Position numbers and translations under genes: made by a program. Below are positions 52,824 through 60,608 of a stretch of DNA of 64,000 bases, piece after piece. The DNA lies in assembly GCF_000802385.1 (NCBI RefSeq), contig NZ_JTDN01000001.1, positions 1,247,501 to 1,311,500 of the forward strand, given 5' to 3'. Position 1 is the stretch's first letter; every line of letters begins with the position of its first letter. The DNA comes from Croceibacterium mercuriale. Its GTDB lineage: Bacteria > Pseudomonadota > Alphaproteobacteria > Sphingomonadales > Sphingomonadaceae. The notes under the pieces were generated by a model. It saw only the letters and a program-made list of their open reading frames with translations. It made no database searches and had not been told where the DNA came from.

Positions 52824-54002
52824 TCAGCTCAGCCGGTTGCGAAAATCCTCGTACTCGAACCGCTTGATGCATTCGAGCGCATCCGTCTCGCTGTCCCACA
52901 GCCAGATGGAGGGGAGCGGCACGCCGTTGAAGGTGGTGGTCTTCACCATCGAATAATGCGCCTGATCCAGGAAGGCGAAGCGCGCGCCGGGCTGAGCGGG
53001 CACCGGCAGGCGATAGTCGCCGATCACGTCCCCCGCCAGGCAGGACGGACCACCCAGCCTGACAGGTTCGCCCTGCACATCGCTGTCCTCGCCCAGCATG
53101 GCCGGGCGATACGGCGCCTCGATCACGTCGGGCATGTGGCAGGTCGCCGAAATGTCCGTGATCGCCAGCGGCATGGCGTTCCAGTGCGTGTCCAGCACCG
53201 TGCCCACCAGAATGCCGGCATCCAGCGCCACGGCCTCGCCCGGCTCCAGGTAGATCTCGGCACCGGTATCCTCGGCCACGTCGCGCAGGAATTCTACCAG
53301 TTCGTCGCGCTGGTAATCGGCGCGGGTGATGTGATGCCCACCGCCGAAGTTCAGCCATTTGATCTGCCCGAAATAGGGCTCCAGATGATCGAACAGCTTG
53401 TCCCAGGTCCGCTTCAGCGGCTCCAGATCCTGCTCGCACAAGGTATGCAGGTGAATGCCATCCACCATCGCCATGTGTTCTTCGGTCAGCTGGTCGATCG
53501 GCCAGCCCAGCCGGCTGTGCGGCGCACACGGATCGTAGCGGGGCACCTCGCCTTCGGCATGCAGCGGGTTCACGCGCAGGCCGATGTCGAAGTTGCCGCC
53601 ACGTACCCGGGCATCATCCAGGATCAGACTGGCGCGTTCGAGCTGCGCCGGTGAGTTGAAGATCACGTGGTCGGACAGACGGCAGATCTCGGGCAGGTCC
53701 TCCGGCTTGTAGGCCGCGCAATAGGTCGCGATCTCGCCGTCATAGAACTCGGATGCCAGCCGCGCCTCCCACAGACCGGAGGTGCATACGCCGTCCAGGT
53801 ACTCGCCGATGATCGGCGCGACCGACCACATGGAGAACGCCTTCAGCGCCGCCAGCACCTTGATGCCCGCAGCATCGCGCACATCCGCCAGGATCTGCAG
53901 GTTGGCGCGCAGCTTCGCCGCGTCGATGACGAATGCCGGGCTGTCCACCCGGCTCAGGTCGAATTGGGCGAAGGCGCCCGGATCACCGGCTCTGGTTTCC
54001 AT
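52824..54002 (-). CDS. nspC: Carboxynorspermidine decarboxylase
   Basis: The 392-residue enzyme belongs to the alanine-racemase-fold decarboxylases. The PLP Lys is in KVLAALKAFSMW (Lys54); GWPIDQLTEEHM, the glycine loop WLNFGGGHHITR and EIYLEPGEAVALDAG follow, with the intersubunit GGPSCLAGDVIGDY. It decarboxylates carboxy(nor)spermidine in the aspartate-semialdehyde route to (nor)spermidine. It is last in the operon; its ATG overlaps the stop of the lipoprotein gene (TGATG). Confidence 0.94.
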   Translation of the reverse strand: METRAGDPGAFAQFDLSRVDSPAFVIDAAKLRANLQILADVRDAAGIKVLAALKAFSMWSVAPIIGEYLDGVCTSGLWEARLASEFYDGEIATYCAAYKPEDLPEICRLSDHVIFNSPAQLERASLILDDARVRGGNFDIGLRVNPLHAEGEVPRYDPCAPHSRLGWPIDQLTEEHMAMVDGIHLHTLCEQDLEPLKRTWDKLFDHLEPYFGQIKWLNFGGGHHITRADYQRDELVEFLRDVAEDTGAEIYLEPGEAVALDAGILVGTVLDTHWNAMPLAITDISATCHMPDVIEAPYRPAMLGEDSDVQGEPVRLGGPSCLAGDVIGDYRLPVPAQPGARFAFLDQAHYSMVKTTTFNGVPLPSIWLWDSETDALECIKRFEYEDFRNRLS

Positions 54003-54370
54003 CAGTCGATACAGATCCCGCCGGTCGCCCGGCCATCTTCCACCTTGGCGAAGCAGCCGAACGGCCGGTCATCCGCCTGGCACTGCCCGCTGACCTGTGT
54101 GCCACCCTGTTGCGCTGCCTCGGTGATGCAGTCGCCCGCGCACTGGTCGCCATCGGTGCAGGTCTTTCCCGCATCGGCGAAGGGCTGCACGCACAGCTCC
54201 GCCTGCATGCGCCCGCGCCGCTGCACCAGGCCGCCGCCCGCACGGCAGGCCGCTGCCGCGCTGACGGCCATGGTGGAGTTCGGGCCGACCGGAGTCGGCT
54301 CTTCCTGCGATACGGGGGCGCACGCGGCCAGGACCGCGAGGCCCGCCACGATGAGGCTGTGGCGCAGCAT
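54002..54370 (-). CDS. Small cysteine-rich lipoprotein in polyamine operon
   Basis: From ATG 54370 the protein has 122 residues. A lipoprotein signal MLRHSLIVAGLAVLAAC puts the lipid-modified Cys at residue 17. The mature part has eight further cysteines (ACRAGGG, LCVQPF, TCTDGDQCAGDC, QCQADD, FGCFAK, GICID), an even number that could make four disulfides. No known domain is recognised. Its ATG overlaps the stop of the carboxynorspermidine synthase by one base (TGATG), and nspC overlaps its own stop the same way, so all three are translationally coupled. The frame remains open upstream but only inside the previous gene. Confidence 0.75.
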   Translation of the reverse strand: MLRHSLIVAGLAVLAACAPVSQEEPTPVGPNSTMAVSAAAACRAGGGLVQRRGRMQAELCVQPFADAGKTCTDGDQCAGDCITEAAQQGGTQVSGQCQADDRPFGCFAKVEDGRATGGICID

Positions 54371-55581
54371 CAGAACTCCACCGGGCCGGCCAGCTGTTCC
54401 ACGGTCCAGGGCAGGCCCTGGCTGTTCAGCATGTCCATGAACGGATCGGGATCGAACTCCTCGATGTTGAACACGCCATCGCCCTGCCATGCGCCGGTCA
54501 GCACCATCGCGCTGCCGATCATCGCCGGCACGCCGGTGGTGTAGCTGACCGCCTGGTTGCCGGTCTCGGCAAAGGCGTCCTCATGGTCACAGATGTTCTT
54601 GATGTAGAAGGTCTGCTCGCCGGAGCCGTCCAGCGCCTCGCCGGTGGCAATCACGCCGATATTGGTCTTGCCCTTGGTCGTGGACCCCAGGCTGGAAGGC
54701 TCCGGCAGCACGGCCTTCAGGAACTGGAGCGGCACGATCGGACGCCCTTCGTACATGACTGGATCGATCCGCGTCATGCCGACATTCTGCAGAACCGTCA
54801 GATGCTTGATGTACTCGTCCCCGAAGGTCATCCAGAACCGCGCGCGCTCCAGCTCCGGCACGAACCTGGCGAGGCTTTCCAGCTCCTCATGGTACATCAG
54901 GTACATGTTCCTGGGGCCCACGCCCTCGAAATCGAAGCCCTGCTTCACGCTCATCGCAGGCGTCTCGACCCACTGGCCGTTCTCCCAGTGGCGGGCCGGC
55001 GCGGTCACTTCGCGGATGTTGATTTCGGGATTGAAGTTGGTGGCGAAGCTCTGGCCGTGGTCGCCACCGTTGCAGTCCAGGATGTCCAGCCGGCGGATGG
55101 TCTTCAGCTTGTGCTTCTTCAGCCACATGGTGAACACGCTGGTGACGCCGGGGTCGAACCCGCTGCCCAGCAGCGCCATGATCGCGGCATCCTTGAAGCG
55201 GTCGTGATAGGCCCACTGCCAGTGATATTCGAACTTGGCCTGATCCTTGGGCTCGTAATTGGCCGTGTCCAGGTAATCGACGCCCGCTTCCAGGCAGGCA
55301 TCCATGATCGGCAGGTCCTGGTACGGGAGCGCCAGATTGACGACCAGCTTCGGCTGCACGCGGCGGATCAGATTGACCATCGCCGGCACTTCTTCCGCAT
55401 CGATCTCGTACGTGGCGACATTCTGCCCTGTGCGTTCCTGCACGCTGGCAGCGATGGCATCACACTTGGACTTCGTGCGGCTGGCCAGATGGATGTCGCC
55501 GAAGATGGCCGGGTTCATCGCCATCTTGTGGACCGCGACCGAACTCACCCCACCCGCGCCGATCACCAGGATAGTGGACAT
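54370..55581 (-). CDS. Carboxynorspermidine synthase (saccharopine dehydrogenase family)
   Basis: ATG 55581 has GGGAG five bases before it and gives 403 residues starting MSTILVIGAGGVSSVAVHKM, an NAD(P)-binding Rossmann loop. ALPYQDLPIMDACLEAGVDYLDTANYEP, LLGSGFDPGVTSVF and LDCNGGDHGQSFATNFNPEINIREV match carboxynorspermidine dehydrogenase. It reductively condenses aspartate semialdehyde with a diamine to carboxy(nor)spermidine, the substrate of NspC encoded in the same operon. First gene of the coupled trio. Confidence 0.93.
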   Translation of the reverse strand: MSTILVIGAGGVSSVAVHKMAMNPAIFGDIHLASRTKSKCDAIAASVQERTGQNVATYEIDAEEVPAMVNLIRRVQPKLVVNLALPYQDLPIMDACLEAGVDYLDTANYEPKDQAKFEYHWQWAYHDRFKDAAIMALLGSGFDPGVTSVFTMWLKKHKLKTIRRLDILDCNGGDHGQSFATNFNPEINIREVTAPARHWENGQWVETPAMSVKQGFDFEGVGPRNMYLMYHEELESLARFVPELERARFWMTFGDEYIKHLTVLQNVGMTRIDPVMYEGRPIVPLQFLKAVLPEPSSLGSTTKGKTNIGVIATGEALDGSGEQTFYIKNICDHEDAFAETGNQAVSYTTGVPAMIGSAMVLTGAWQGDGVFNIEEFDPDPFMDMLNSQGLPWTVEQLAGPVEF

Positions 55582-55690
55582 GGAAACTCCCATCTCGAAA
55601 ATGCATGTTCACGCGCCTAACGCTTGTGCCGGGTTGCCGGTGCCAGCGCGCTGATGGCGCCCGTTTAGGGAAAAGCGCAGGAGGAGCAAG

Positions 55691-56662
55691 ATGAGTGTCG
55701 CGCCGGTCAGAACTCCGACACGGGACGGCGTGCTGCGCGCGGCACGCAAGATCGCGGCGATCCTGCCGCCCACCCCGCTGCTGCCCGTCACCATCCATGG
55801 CCATCAGGTCTGGGCCAAGGCGGAATGCCTTCAGCCGATCGGCGTGTTCAAGATCCGCGGTGCGTGGCATCGCCTGTCCGACCTGAGCGAGGAGGAACGC
55901 GCGCGCGGCGTCGTGGGCGTGTCCAGCGGCAACCATGCGCAGGGCGTCGCCTGGGCGGCCCGGCGACTGGGCATGCAGGCGGCGATCGTCATGCCGGCCG
56001 ATGCGCCACGGGTGAAGCTGGCCCGCGTGGCGGAGCTTGGCGCCGAGGTCGTCACCTATGACCGCGCATCCCAGGATCGGGACACCATCTCGCAGGCACT
56101 GGCGGCGAAGCGGGGCGCAACGCTGGTCCATGCCTTCGGCGATCCCTGGGTGATCGAAGGTCAGGGCAGCGCCGGCGTGGAACTCGACGCGCAGATGGCG
56201 GCGCTGGCCGGCGGCGCACCGACCCGGATCATCACGCCCAGCGGCGGTGGCGGTCTGGCGGCAGGATTGGCACTGGCCTGTCCGGCGGCGGAGATCGTGG
56301 CGGTGGAGCCGGCCGGCTGGGACGATGTCGGGCGCAGCCTTGCGACTGGCACGATCCAGCGTGTCGCTGCGGATGCGCCGCAGACCGCCTGCGATGCGCT
56401 GCAAACGCCGGCGACCTGGCCGGTCAACTTTGCCGTGCTGCATGGCCGGGTGAGTGCCGTGACGGTCAGCGAGGAAGAGGTGCGCACCGCACAGCGGTTC
56501 GCCTTCGCGGAGTTGCGACTGGTGCTGGAACCCGGCGGTGCCGTCGCGCTGGCCGCGGCGCTGGCCGGCCGGGTGCCGCTGGACGGCCACACTGCCCTGA
56601 TCCTGTCAGGCGGCAACACCGATGCAGTCAGCTTCGCGCAGGTCCTGACTGATGGAGAGTGA
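55691..56662 (+). CDS. PLP-dependent threonine/serine dehydratase
   Basis: The 323-residue protein has AGGAGGAGC before its ATG. Lys54 in GVFKIRGAWH binds PLP, SGNHAQGVAWAARRLG follows, the phosphate loop is PSGGGGLAAG (near 181) and LILSGGN is near the end. This is the catabolic-type threonine dehydratase fold without a C-terminal ACT regulatory domain, so it is probably not the feedback-controlled IlvA. It could also be a serine racemase. It is divergent from the polyamine operon by about 110 bases and converges on otsA with 6 bases between stops. Confidence 0.92.
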   Translation: MSVAPVRTPTRDGVLRAARKIAAILPPTPLLPVTIHGHQVWAKAECLQPIGVFKIRGAWHRLSDLSEEERARGVVGVSSGNHAQGVAWAARRLGMQAAIVMPADAPRVKLARVAELGAEVVTYDRASQDRDTISQALAAKRGATLVHAFGDPWVIEGQGSAGVELDAQMAALAGGAPTRIITPSGGGGLAAGLALACPAAEIVAVEPAGWDDVGRSLATGTIQRVAADAPQTACDALQTPATWPVNFAVLHGRVSAVTVSEEEVRTAQRFAFAELRLVLEPGGAVALAAALAGRVPLDGHTALILSGGNTDAVSFAQVLTDGE

Positions 56663-56668
56663 CGAGGA

Positions 56669-58066
56669 TCAGCCTACGGCAGGTTCAGTCGTCCCTTCCA
56701 GGTCGGTGATGAAATTGTCGGTCCAGCGCAGCACATTGTCATCGCGGACGGTGACGATCAGCTGTTCCCATCTGGCCTTGCGCTCCGCCAGTGACATGTC
56801 GAGCGCCAGACGGATATTGTGCGCCACATCGTCGGGACTGTACGGGTTGACCAGCAGCGCCTCGCCCATCTGCAACGCCGCACCGGCAAAGCGGGACAGC
56901 ACCAGCACACCCGGATCTTCCGGATCCTGCGCGGCGACATATTCCTTCGCCACCAGGTTCATGCCGTCACGCAGGGGCGTCACCAGCCCGATCTTGGCGG
57001 CGCGGTAGAACCCGAACAGCTCCGCCATGCTGTAACCACGGTTGACGTAGCGGATGGGCACCAGGTCGACATCGCTGCGCGCACCGTTGATCTGCCCGGT
57101 CTTCTGTTCAAGCATCGTGCGGATCTTCTGGTAGGATCCGATATCTTCCCGGCTCGGCGGCGCGATCTGGATGAACAGCAGGTCCTTCACCCGGTCAGGG
57201 TAGGTGTCGAAGAACCGGCCGATCCCGTCCATCCGCTCCGGCAGGCCCTTGGAATAATCCAGCCGGTCCACGCCGATCATCGCTGTCCGGGTGCGGGAAC
57301 TGTCGCACAGGCGGCGGTAGGCGGTCTTGGCCGCGATGGTCTGCCCTTGCGCGACGAAGTGGTCGTAGTCGACTCCGATGGGGTAGGCCTTGGCCACTGT
57401 CTTCCGCCCGTCCAGCTCCACCACGCAATCTTCGTGGTCGACGGTCGCGCCCAGCTCCCGCTCGCAATAATGCAGGAAGCTTTCCAGCCATTCCGTGGTC
57501 TGGAAACCGATCAGGTCATAATGCAGCATCGCCCGGACCAGCCGCTGGTGGAACGGCAGGGAGACGAACAGGCGGGTTGGCGGCCAGGGGATATGCAGGA
57601 AGAAACCGATCCGGTTCTTCACCCCGCGCGACCGCAGCCGCTCCCCCAGCGGCATCAGGTGGTAATCATGCACCCACACCGTGTCTTCGGGCTCGATCAG
57701 CGGCAGCACGCTCTGGGCGAAGCGCTCGTTTACCCGCTCGTAGCCCCGGCCGAATTCCTGTTCGTATTCGGTCAGGTCGATGCGGTAATGGAACAGCGGC
57801 CACAGCGTCGAATTGGCGTAGCCGTTATAGTACTCCTCGACATCCGCCTGCTCCAGATCGATCGTGGCGGTGGTGACGCCTTCCGACCGCTGCACGTTGA
57901 TGTTGCCGGTGAAGGTGTCCGTCTCCTGGCCGGACCAGCCGAACCAGATGCCACCGTTCTGCTTAAGCGCAGAATTCAGCGCGCCGGCCAGTCCGCCCTG
58001 CGCCCCGGCCGCCCCCCGTGCCTTGGGGACTGCGACGCGGTTCGAAATGACGACAAGACGGCTCAA
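56669..58066 (-). CDS. otsA: Alpha,alpha-trehalose-phosphate synthase (GT20)
   Basis: TTG 58066 overlaps the GH15 stop by 4 bases (TTGA) and gives 465 residues starting MSRLVVISNRV, exactly the OtsA N-terminus; the frame is open further upstream only inside the GH15 gene. GGLAGALNSAL, WVHDYHLMPLGERLR, GFFLHIPWPP, IGVDRLDYSKGLPERM and TPLRDGMNLVAKEY are GT20 motifs. It joins UDP-glucose and glucose-6-phosphate to trehalose-6-phosphate. In transcription order the operon is otsB, GH15, otsA. Confidence 0.96.
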   Translation of the reverse strand: MSRLVVISNRVAVPKARGAAGAQGGLAGALNSALKQNGGIWFGWSGQETDTFTGNINVQRSEGVTTATIDLEQADVEEYYNGYANSTLWPLFHYRIDLTEYEQEFGRGYERVNERFAQSVLPLIEPEDTVWVHDYHLMPLGERLRSRGVKNRIGFFLHIPWPPTRLFVSLPFHQRLVRAMLHYDLIGFQTTEWLESFLHYCERELGATVDHEDCVVELDGRKTVAKAYPIGVDYDHFVAQGQTIAAKTAYRRLCDSSRTRTAMIGVDRLDYSKGLPERMDGIGRFFDTYPDRVKDLLFIQIAPPSREDIGSYQKIRTMLEQKTGQINGARSDVDLVPIRYVNRGYSMAELFGFYRAAKIGLVTPLRDGMNLVAKEYVAAQDPEDPGVLVLSRFAGAALQMGEALLVNPYSPDDVAHNIRLALDMSLAERKARWEQLIVTVRDDNVLRWTDNFITDLEGTTEPAVG

Positions 58067-59868
58067 CGGACAGTGTTCCAGTTCTTTGATAACAGACCAG
58101 CACAATTGATCACTCCGACCAGCGAATAGGTCTGCGGGAAGTTCCCCCACAGCTCCCCGGTCACGAAGTCCATATCTTCGGACAGCAGCCCCGACCTGGT
58201 GCGATGACCCAGCATGGCGACGAACAGCTCCCGCGCCTCCTGGTGCCGACCCATCCGCGCCAGCGCATCGATCAGCCAGAAGGTACAGATGTTGAAGGCA
58301 GTCTCGGGCGGGCCGAAATCGTCCTCCTTCTGGTACCGCAGCATGTGCTCGCCCCGGCGCAGGTCGCGCTCCACCGCGTCGATCGTGCTGGCGAAGCGCG
58401 GATCGTCCGGTTCCAGGAAGCGCAGCTCCAGCATCTGCAGCAGGCTGGCGTCCAGGTACTCGCTCTCGAAGCTGGCCTTGTAGAAACCATCCCGCTCGTC
58501 CGTGTCGGGAACCCAGGCATCGCGGTCGATCCGCGCACGGACGGCATCCGCCCGGTCATGCCAGAACCCGGCTCGATCCGGCTTGCCCAGCCGCTCCGCC
58601 ACATTGCGCAGGCGATCACAGGCGGCCCAGCACATCACGGCGGAGTAGGTGTGAACCTCCTCCCGGGTGCGGAACTCCCACAGGCCGGCATCGGGCTGGT
58701 CATGCATCCGCCACGCCATCTCGCCCACCTGCTCCAGCCGGGCAAAGTCGCGCTCGTCCGCCATGCGCAGCAATCGCCGGTCGAAGAACGCCTGCACCGT
58801 GGGCAGCACGATCTGGCCGTAGCAATCGTGCTGCACCTGCCGGAAGGCGGCATTGCCGATCCGCACCGGCCCCATCCCACGATAGCCCGACAGGTCCGGC
58901 GCGATGCTCTCCGTCAGCTCGGCCGCGCCCATCACCGAATACAGCGGCTGGATCCGCCCGCCCTGCGCATCGTCCACGATGTTGCGCAGATAGCCGAGAT
59001 ACTTCTCCAGCACGTCCAGCGCGCCCAGCCGGTTAAGCGCTTGCACCGTGTAGTAGGAATCGCGGATCCAGCAGAACCGGTAGTCCCAGTTGCGCTGCGA
59101 TCCCGGTGCCTCCGGGATGGAGGTGGTCAGCGCGGCGACGATCGCGCCGGTCTCCTCGTGCTGGCACAGCTTCAGCGTGATGGCACAGCGGATGACCTCG
59201 TCCTGCCATTCGAGCGGGGTGGCCAGCCCGCGCACCCACAGGCGCCAGTACTTGCGCGTCAGTTCTTCCATGTTGCGCAACTCGGCGCGCAGATTGCCGA
59301 CGAACGGCTCGTCAGGCCCCAGGAAGAAGTGCTGGTCGCTTTCCACGCGGTACGTCTTGCCCGCCAGTACATAGCCAATCGGCGCGTCGGTCGACAGCCG
59401 CATGGCCTCGTCACCCAGCAGATACCGGATATGATTGCTGCCATTGGTGGTGCGTGGTTCTGCCGACCCGTGGCTGTGCAGCGGCGCCAGCTTGATCTTC
59501 AACCGCGGCACGCCCGCGACCGGCCGCACGATGCGGGTGAAGGCGACCGGGCGATACATGCGCCCGGACCGTTCGAACCGCGGGCAAAAGTCGGTGATCT
59601 CTACCGCGCTGCCATCCGCCGCCTCCAGCCGGGTGACCAGGATGGGGGTGTTGCGCTCGTAGCTCTGGCTGGCGCGCACCTGCCCTTCCAGCTCGAACCG
59701 CCAGACGCCCTGGTCCGGCCTGTCGCCGTGCAGCAGCGCGCAGAACACCGGGTCGCCGTCGACGCGCGGAATGCAGCCCCATACCAGGCCGGCCCGCTCG
59801 TCGATCATGCCGGACACCTGGCAATTGCCGACCGGCCATAATTCAAGGTTCGCGCCGCTGTCGCTCAC
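58063..59868 (-). CDS. Glycoside hydrolase family 15 protein (glucoamylase/trehalase-like)
   Basis: The 601-residue protein has the GH15 layout: an N-terminal beta-sandwich (GLVWGCIPRVDGDPVFCALLHG) and an alpha/alpha barrel with NWDYRFCWIRDSYYTVQAL, the conserved LPTVQAFFDRRLL, and the C-terminal SEDMDFVTGELWGNFPQTYSLVGVINCA. No signal peptide, so it is cytoplasmic. GH15 enzymes release glucose from alpha-glucans or, in some actinobacteria and others, from trehalose. Being encoded between otsB and otsA with 4-base overlaps on both sides, it probably hydrolyses trehalose or a related glucan. Confidence 0.92.
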   Translation of the reverse strand: MSDSGANLELWPVGNCQVSGMIDERAGLVWGCIPRVDGDPVFCALLHGDRPDQGVWRFELEGQVRASQSYERNTPILVTRLEAADGSAVEITDFCPRFERSGRMYRPVAFTRIVRPVAGVPRLKIKLAPLHSHGSAEPRTTNGSNHIRYLLGDEAMRLSTDAPIGYVLAGKTYRVESDQHFFLGPDEPFVGNLRAELRNMEELTRKYWRLWVRGLATPLEWQDEVIRCAITLKLCQHEETGAIVAALTTSIPEAPGSQRNWDYRFCWIRDSYYTVQALNRLGALDVLEKYLGYLRNIVDDAQGGRIQPLYSVMGAAELTESIAPDLSGYRGMGPVRIGNAAFRQVQHDCYGQIVLPTVQAFFDRRLLRMADERDFARLEQVGEMAWRMHDQPDAGLWEFRTREEVHTYSAVMCWAACDRLRNVAERLGKPDRAGFWHDRADAVRARIDRDAWVPDTDERDGFYKASFESEYLDASLLQMLELRFLEPDDPRFASTIDAVERDLRRGEHMLRYQKEDDFGPPETAFNICTFWLIDALARMGRHQEARELFVAMLGHRTRSGLLSEDMDFVTGELWGNFPQTYSLVGVINCAGLLSKNWNTVR

Positions 59869-60608
59869 AGGCCGAGCCAGTCGTGCACGGCGGCCGCATC
59901 GGGCAACTGGTAGCGGGCCCGGGTCGGGGTGCGATCGCCGACCAGGATGCCGAAGCCGCCCAGTTCATCCGCGGCGCGGAAGCCATCCTCGTCGGTGACG
60001 TCGTCGCCAACGAAGATCGGCATGGCCCCGGCGAACGGCGCCACCTGCATGAAGGCGCGCACCGCCCCTTCCTTGCTGACGCCGGGCCGCACCAGCTCGA
60101 TCACGCTCTTGCCGCGCTTAACCTCCAGCTGGTGCCGGCCGGCCAGATCCTGCGCAAAGGCGAGGCCCGCCGGCTCAAGCGAAGGATCGCTGCGGTAATG
60201 CAGTGCGGCGCCATGGGGCTTCTGCTCCAGCGCGAAGCCACCGGCGGCGGCGAAATCGCGCAAGGCCTGCGTCGCATCGTCCGGCAAGGGCGCCGGCACT
60301 TCGCCCAGCAGCGATCCGTCGGCCAGTTCGCGCGCGATGCCGTGCGATCCGGCACGCGCCACGCGCAAGGAGCCGAGATGCCGCTGCAGGTCCGGGATCG
60401 CCCGCCCGCTGACAAGCGCCACGCGGTGATCCAGGCGCTCGCTCAGCGTGGCAAGATCGTCGGCCAGAGTCGTGCCCACGCTGATGCTGTCGGGCGTTGG
60501 CGCCAGGTCGACCAGCGTGCCGTCGAAATCCAGGAACAGCGCGAACGGCCCTTCCTGGCTCAGGTCAGGCAGGCGGGGCGGCGGCGGCAGGGTGGCATGT
60601 TCGAACAT
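59865..60608 (-). CDS. otsB: Trehalose-6-phosphate phosphatase
   Basis: The 247-residue HAD-type enzyme has the nucleophile and general acid in FLDFDGTLVD (Asp27, Asp29), then VALVSGRAIPDLQ, AGSHGIARE, ELVRPGVSKEGAVRAFM and IFVGDDVTDEDGFRA. It dephosphorylates trehalose-6-phosphate to trehalose. First gene of the operon; its stop overlaps the GH15 start (ATGA). Trehalose serves as osmoprotectant; no regulator site was recognised in the 110 bases to the divergent regulator gene. Confidence 0.96.
   Translation of the reverse strand: MFEHATLPPPPRLPDLSQEGPFALFLDFDGTLVDLAPTPDSISVGTTLADDLATLSERLDHRVALVSGRAIPDLQRHLGSLRVARAGSHGIARELADGSLLGEVPAPLPDDATQALRDFAAAGGFALEQKPHGAALHYRSDPSLEPAGLAFAQDLAGRHQLEVKRGKSVIELVRPGVSKEGAVRAFMQVAPFAGAMPIFVGDDVTDEDGFRAADELGGFGILVGDRTPTRARYQLPDAAAVHDWLGL

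Follow-up and report, generated by a model that had tools for sequence, protein, structure and literature searches.

A small cysteine-rich lipoprotein gene as a probable guest between two polyamine genes of sphingomonads

In Croceibacterium mercuriale the gene for a cysteine-rich lipoprotein (LP) is locked by stop-start overlaps between two genes of polyamine synthesis. We propose, with a probability of about 0.7, that LP is a general outer-membrane, disulfide-stabilised small lipoprotein that lives as a guest between these genes. The LP family has other homes and the interval between the two polyamine genes holds varied contents in other genomes, which makes a general envelope guest likelier than a part of polyamine chemistry; a polyamine-specific role is less likely.

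The lipoprotein gene and its overlaps

The analysed stretch of 64,000 nucleotides is referred to as the window. The following features are relevant here, where CANS and CANSDC denote the two polyamine enzymes:

52824..54002, minus strand: CANSDC, carboxy(nor)spermidine decarboxylase-like (nspC-like), 392 aa; assigned by PF00278, with TIGR01047 below cut-off
54000..54004, minus strand: TGATG overlap of the LP stop and the CANSDC start, read from the sequence
54002..54370, minus strand: LP, eight-cysteine lipoprotein, 122 aa; assigned by sequence, family alignments and AF2 models
54368..54372, minus strand: TGATG overlap of the CANS stop and the LP start, read from the sequence
54370..55593, minus strand: CANS, carboxy(nor)spermidine dehydrogenase/synthase-like, 407 aa; assigned by PF03435 and PF16653, with NF043000 below cut-off
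Layout of LP: a predicted signal peptide whose lipobox is LAAC17, then a linker up to about residue 36, then the cysteine-rich core (37-122)

The initial annotation described TGATG overlaps of LP with both CANS and CANSDC and a lipoprotein with eight extra cysteines, and both are present in the window. LP starts with ATG and shares one base with each neighbour. Its lipobox is L14-A-A-C17, and eight more cysteines stand at positions 42, 60, 71, 77, 81, 97, 106 and 120; with a predicted signal peptide and a lipobox cysteine it has the hallmarks of a putative bacterial lipoprotein. TGATG-type overlaps are possible in 5 of the 28 adjacent co-directional ORF pairs of the window, as counted with a crude ORF caller, and two of these five are the LP junctions. 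The double TGATG is not constant within the genus: one genome (G002) has it at the 3' junction of LP only, and another (G001) at the 5' junction only, with the LP stop 13 nt before the TGATG at the CANSDC end.

CANS is saccharopine-dehydrogenase-like, and its best NCBIfam match is carboxynorspermidine synthase (NF043000) with 383.6 bits, under the equivalog cut-off of 800. CANSDC belongs to a family of PLP decarboxylases (Orn_DAP_Arg_deC), and its best match, nspC, reaches 381.7 bits where the equivalog cut-off is 409.05. Since both fall under these cut-offs, the assignment stays at carboxy(nor)spermidine-like and does not fix the exact amine. Both genes that flank LP thus resemble the carboxy(nor)spermidine dehydrogenase/decarboxylase pathway, which differs here by the extra gene between the pair and by the unreached equivalog scores. 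Elsewhere in the window, positions 55691-60608 encode a PALP enzyme and a GT20 trehalose-6-phosphate synthase (Pfam), followed by glucoamylase-like and phosphatase-like ORFs (by eye), perhaps a trehalose cluster.

Conservation and predicted structure of LP

The claim that LP has no known domain holds within the libraries searched: neither the window protein nor its homologs matched a family above cut-off in Pfam, NCBIfam, PHROG or the PDB sequences. The Pfam family DUF7317 was rejected, as its match (E 0.0075, 16.5 bits against a cut-off of 27) spans residues 1-43 and includes the signal peptide. All 61 aligned homologs have seven of the core cysteines, and the eighth, Cys77, is present in 60. 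The eight cysteines are retained across hosts and gene contexts, as befits a conserved unit, and the lipobox pattern was found in 76 of 80 loci (the best 80 of 146 relatives). Short divergent variants in three genomes (G081, G188 and G236) are without Cys42 and Cys60 together, which suggests that these two probably form one disulfide pair. Values of dN/dS of 0.14-0.27, for the three pairs among three genomes of the genus, indicate purifying selection. From its sequences, LP is a well conserved and uncatalogued family of predicted eight-cysteine lipoproteins of Alpha- and Gammaproteobacteria. No description of it was found in the literature searched, which largely excluded subscription papers.

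AF2 modelled the full-length protein with a mean pLDDT of 85.4 and the core (residues 37-122) with 89.0, the latter predicted as one short helix and six strands. Foldseek gave 43 matches of the full-length model to the PDB up to E 10 and none up to 0.001, and no match of the core model to viral models up to E 0.001. The lack of structural matches to these models is no proof of a new fold. VIA-align returned one chain only, Draxin (5z5k_B), with Z 2.0 and 2.1 at its reporting floor; the alignment at Z 2.1 covers 35 of the 86 core residues with an rmsd of 2.6, too weak for kinship. Among the homologs, the Pfam families Toxin_11 (best E 0.0019, in 4 of 61), colipase (0.033, in 2 of 61) and squash (0.32, in 2 of 61) all stayed below cut-off. 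We take the Draxin domain to be of the Dickkopf/colipase-like cysteine-knot kind, and the spacing G-x-C-x5-C-x3-C...G-x-C of LP presumably resembles that of such knots. The likeness consists of the cysteine spacing and the Draxin alignment; against it stand the Z score at the floor, the partial coverage of the core and the lack of a sequence match above cut-off. NspS is a protein of PotD-like size, and no substrate-binding-protein match (PotD/NspS) was found with Pfam in the window protein or in sets of 27 or 61 homologs.

Contents of the CANS-CANSDC junction

CANSDC was found in 157 of the 298 genomes of the sphingomonad family, and the junction with CANS was resolved in 137 of them, from 48 genera; the other 20 include those where CANS lay beyond the retrieved flank. 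The 137 junctions range from -1 to 4,664 nt: at most 3 nt in 17 operons, 4-60 in 15, 61-200 in 19, 201-700 in 48, 701-1500 in 21 and longer in 17. More than 200 nt separate the genes in 86 of them. The three-gene order of the window recurs, with LP in 20 of the 137 junctions and nine of the 48 genera; in the slots of the other 39 genera LP was undetected. Nine other clusters of guests were counted by tblastn, with these assignments:

DUF486/DMT_6: 18 junctions (Pfam)
Macro domain: 11 junctions (Pfam)
Beta-propeller: 11 junctions (by eye)
PDDEXK_3 (nuclease): 7 junctions (Pfam)
S41/PDZ peptidase: 5 junctions (Pfam)
Peptidase-like alpha/beta hydrolase: 5 junctions (by eye)
GNAT: 3 junctions (Pfam)
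Abhydrolase (other alpha/beta hydrolase): 3 junctions (Pfam)
Glyoxalase (VOC): 1 junction, in G004 (L038), of the same genus as the window (Pfam)

The two clusters of hydrolases may be distantly related. Of the 86 long junctions, 15 contain at least two recognised guests and 25 contain none; the latter may in part be non-coding. All nine clusters are co-directional with the operon, as are 27 of 27 ORFs of the LP cluster. Other ORFs of the slot run against the operon, among them a large serine-hydrolase-like cluster of eight and a transporter-like cluster of five (by eye), and for these chance insertion fits better than operon guests. Genes in the slot were called with a crude ORF caller. The TGATG of CANS holds the start of an ORF of at least 60 aa in 17 of the 86 long junctions, namely LP in eight and other genes in nine. 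As this amounts to 8 of 20 junctions with LP and 9 of 66 other long junctions, tight coupling is commoner with LP, though not exclusive to it. TGATG occurs at the CANSDC start in 22 of the 86 and at both ends in 7, counts that refer to the motif and not to the guest's own stop. The 309-nt junction of G003 (L037) has no recognised gene, and its translation contains repeated RHCEEPQATRQSS- and DCFATLAMTK-like units. Some of the Croceicoccus-type slots (L017-L019) have a second small lipoprotein-like ORF after LP; the one in L018 gave no Pfam match.

Comparison with trpB-trpA

As a control we used the trpB-trpA junction in the sphingomonad family. It was resolved in 89 of the 90 genomes taken from 105 with matches; 30 of these were the best-scoring ones and had a flank of 1.5 kb only. 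The genomes partly differ from those of the slot sample, and trpA starts were extrapolated from alignments. The junction exceeds 200 nt in 26 of the 89 loci, compared to 86 of 137 for the CANS slot. This higher filling may leave room for something special at the CANS slot. In gaps of at least 150 nt, a small ORF overlaps both neighbours by 4-5 nt in 9 of 37 cases, and in the window's own genome (L326, C1:742142-746592) a 60-aa ORF, membrane-protein-like by eye, overlaps both trpB and trpA. The trp guests are small genes, many of them membrane-protein-like and several DUF559-like by eye, with one DUF559 confirmed by Pfam; they gave no blastp match to ORFs of the CANS slot at E 1e-4 and no match to the LP profile. 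Such guests indicate that it is not rare here for a small gene to be joined to both neighbours by stop-start overlaps. ATGA and TGATG overlaps are described as common among prokaryotes (PMC6728339); the LP junctions resemble the overlapping pairs with termination-reinitiation treated there, and differ in that the middle gene varies by lineage.

Distribution of LP

A profile built from four homologs matches 32 of the 298 genomes and 19 of the 96 genera of the sphingomonad family. LP lies in the CANS-CANSDC interval in 20 of these 32 genomes, which makes this its commonest home in the family; the genera are Croceibacterium, Altericroceibacterium, Novosphingobium, Croceicoccus, Qipengyuania, Erythrobacter, Sphingobium and others. 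Direct contact with both genes is not universal, and in G201 the interval with LP is several kb long. Among the other 12 genomes, seven have CANSDC elsewhere and five are without a CANSDC match (E 1e-60); in G081 the LP match lies outside the interval, and the slot holds an additional LP, short and divergent. Among the 289 genomes of a class sample, 5 have LP and 12 have CANSDC; one genome besides the window's own has both, on separate contigs. The initial annotation would have given up its functional link if LP were missing from the operon in the closest relatives or widespread away from polyamine genes. The former applies in part, since two of the five genomes searched in the genus gave no LP match (G003, 77% complete, and G004, 90% complete), and the latter is what we find.

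Named genomes were scanned as well and gave 146 confirmed relatives, which come from sphingomonads, Caulobacter, Brevundimonas, Hyphomonadaceae, Parvularculaceae, Xanthomonas, Stenotrophomonas and further bins. The counts that follow concern the best 80 of these 146, and since they came from an operon-derived alignment, the operon-linked share is biased upward. CANS lies upstream of LP in 36 of the 80 loci, with CANSDC present too, and one further locus, ended by a contig edge, has CANSDC alone; all of these are from sphingomonads except two bins titled Alphaproteobacteria (L177 and L242). Neither gene was found within flanks of up to 6 kb at the loci of Caulobacter, Brevundimonas, Hyphomonas and Xanthomonadaceae. 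PurL is upstream in 14 loci and HmgA in 5 (neighbours identified with NCBIfam on one example each), with LP after purL in Caulobacter and after hmgA in Brevundimonas. In Xanthomonadaceae, LP has an RmuC-like gene upstream and a glutathione peroxidase gene downstream in 16 of 16 loci. The remaining 9 of the 80, one of them ended by a contig edge, showed no CANS, PurL, HmgA or RmuC/Gpx neighbours. Where CANS is not the upstream gene (44 loci), a crude gene caller places a same-strand gene upstream in 39. A second sphingomonad lineage of LP (L007, L011, L020 and L022) forms one starred clade on the tree; in L020 the gene stands after a biotin carboxylase-type gene and faces a convergent aroB-like gene (the latter by eye).

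Age of the linkage

On the LP tree the slot labels require 3-4 changes, compared to about 26 in shuffles. The tree has 79 rows, namely 93 context rows less 31, plus 17 from the genome search; the 31 were near-duplicates, copies of loci already included, the partial L209, and L032. A test on 132 columns, with 24 open forks and L033 omitted, does not reject one clade for the slot LPs (p-AU 0.267), so a single origin is neither shown nor rejected by these sequences. Distances of LP and CANSDC are correlated (Mantel r 0.66, n=39, permutation maximum 0.25), based on 43 slot rows less four, of which one had an unresolved slot and three had short stretches of CANSDC. Mean identity is 45% for LP and 76% for CANSDC, so LP evolves much faster. 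The unrejected clade and the correlated distances point to a long-lasting linkage. An arrangement that looks old, co-divergence and low dN/dS are expected if an inserted gene was long inherited together with its neighbours, and equally if a functional bond ties them.

Possible roles of LP

According to the Lol sorting rule, Ala at +2 directs a lipoprotein to the outer membrane. As a general envelope guest, LP would be exported, lipidated on Cys17 and, with Ala at +2, sorted to the outer membrane, and its eight cysteines would pair in the periplasm to form a compact module that may bind a ligand. The operon would supply transcription, and termination-reinitiation at TGATG would tie the translation level of LP to that of CANS. 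The polyamine enzymes would then be hosts of LP and not functional partners.

The initial annotation read the tight coupling as a functional link between polyamines and the envelope. The arrangement itself is no isolated case: it recurs, LP and CANSDC co-diverge, and LP is under purifying selection. A polyamine function derived from coupling alone is set aside in view of the varied contents of the slot and of the trpB-trpA comparison. The idea that such a link is undescribed does not stand, since one is reported for NspS-MbaA, which senses polyamines in Vibrio cholerae and Sinorhizobium meliloti (PMC5646818, PMC8079147, PMC9993111). NspS-MbaA shares with the proposed link that polyamines outside the cytoplasm are connected to the cell surface (PMC5646818, PMC9993111), but NspS is a periplasmic binding protein there, whereas the 122-aa LP is without a match to a binding-protein family. 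If LP was recruited in sphingomonads to bind, sense or export a spermidine-type amine at the envelope, with the operon keeping the stoichiometry, this would agree with a gene order that spans many sphingomonad genera, with the unrejected single origin (p-AU 0.267) and co-divergence with CANSDC, with the dN/dS of 0.14-0.27 in three within-genus pairs, and with the preference of LP for the TGATG of CANS (8/20 against 9/66). We nevertheless consider this recruitment unlikely, as LP is undetected in the slot in 39 of 48 genera, also sits beside purL, hmgA and gpx, and occurs outside the interval in five genomes without a CANSDC match, while other genes use the same slot.

The range of junction lengths and contents over 137 operons, the filling above that of trpB-trpA and the opposite-strand clusters of eight and five ORFs could also come from an insertion or recombination hot spot that placed LP there by that mechanism alone, with no benefit of position. 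This is improbable given that many guests are co-directional, including all 27 LP-cluster ORFs, that LP is under purifying selection and that the control junction varies as well. There is a similarly small chance that the junction is a preferred docking slot, in which LP, whose fold has so far found no match, stays in tight coupling because the outer membrane profits from its co-expression with the synthesis of spermidine-type polyamines. LP might also be a periplasmic lipoprotein of the inhibitor or immunity type, directed against proteases, lysozyme-like enzymes or the toxins of rivals, which is compatible with a guest. Its small cysteine-rich core and its sole, weak resemblances to small cysteine-rich proteins (Draxin, Toxin_11, colipase, squash) would suit this role, but these resemblances are at or under the floor of reliability and no toxin is among the neighbours that family searches or inspection by eye identified, and we give it little credence.

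Whichever ligand a general envelope guest may have, the LP family, for which neither name, structure nor function was found in the searched libraries, is now delimited and open to study in harmless laboratory strains. Its case is a warning against inferring function from stop-start overlaps: in sphingomonads, differing small genes occupy conserved operon gaps with the same kind of junction.
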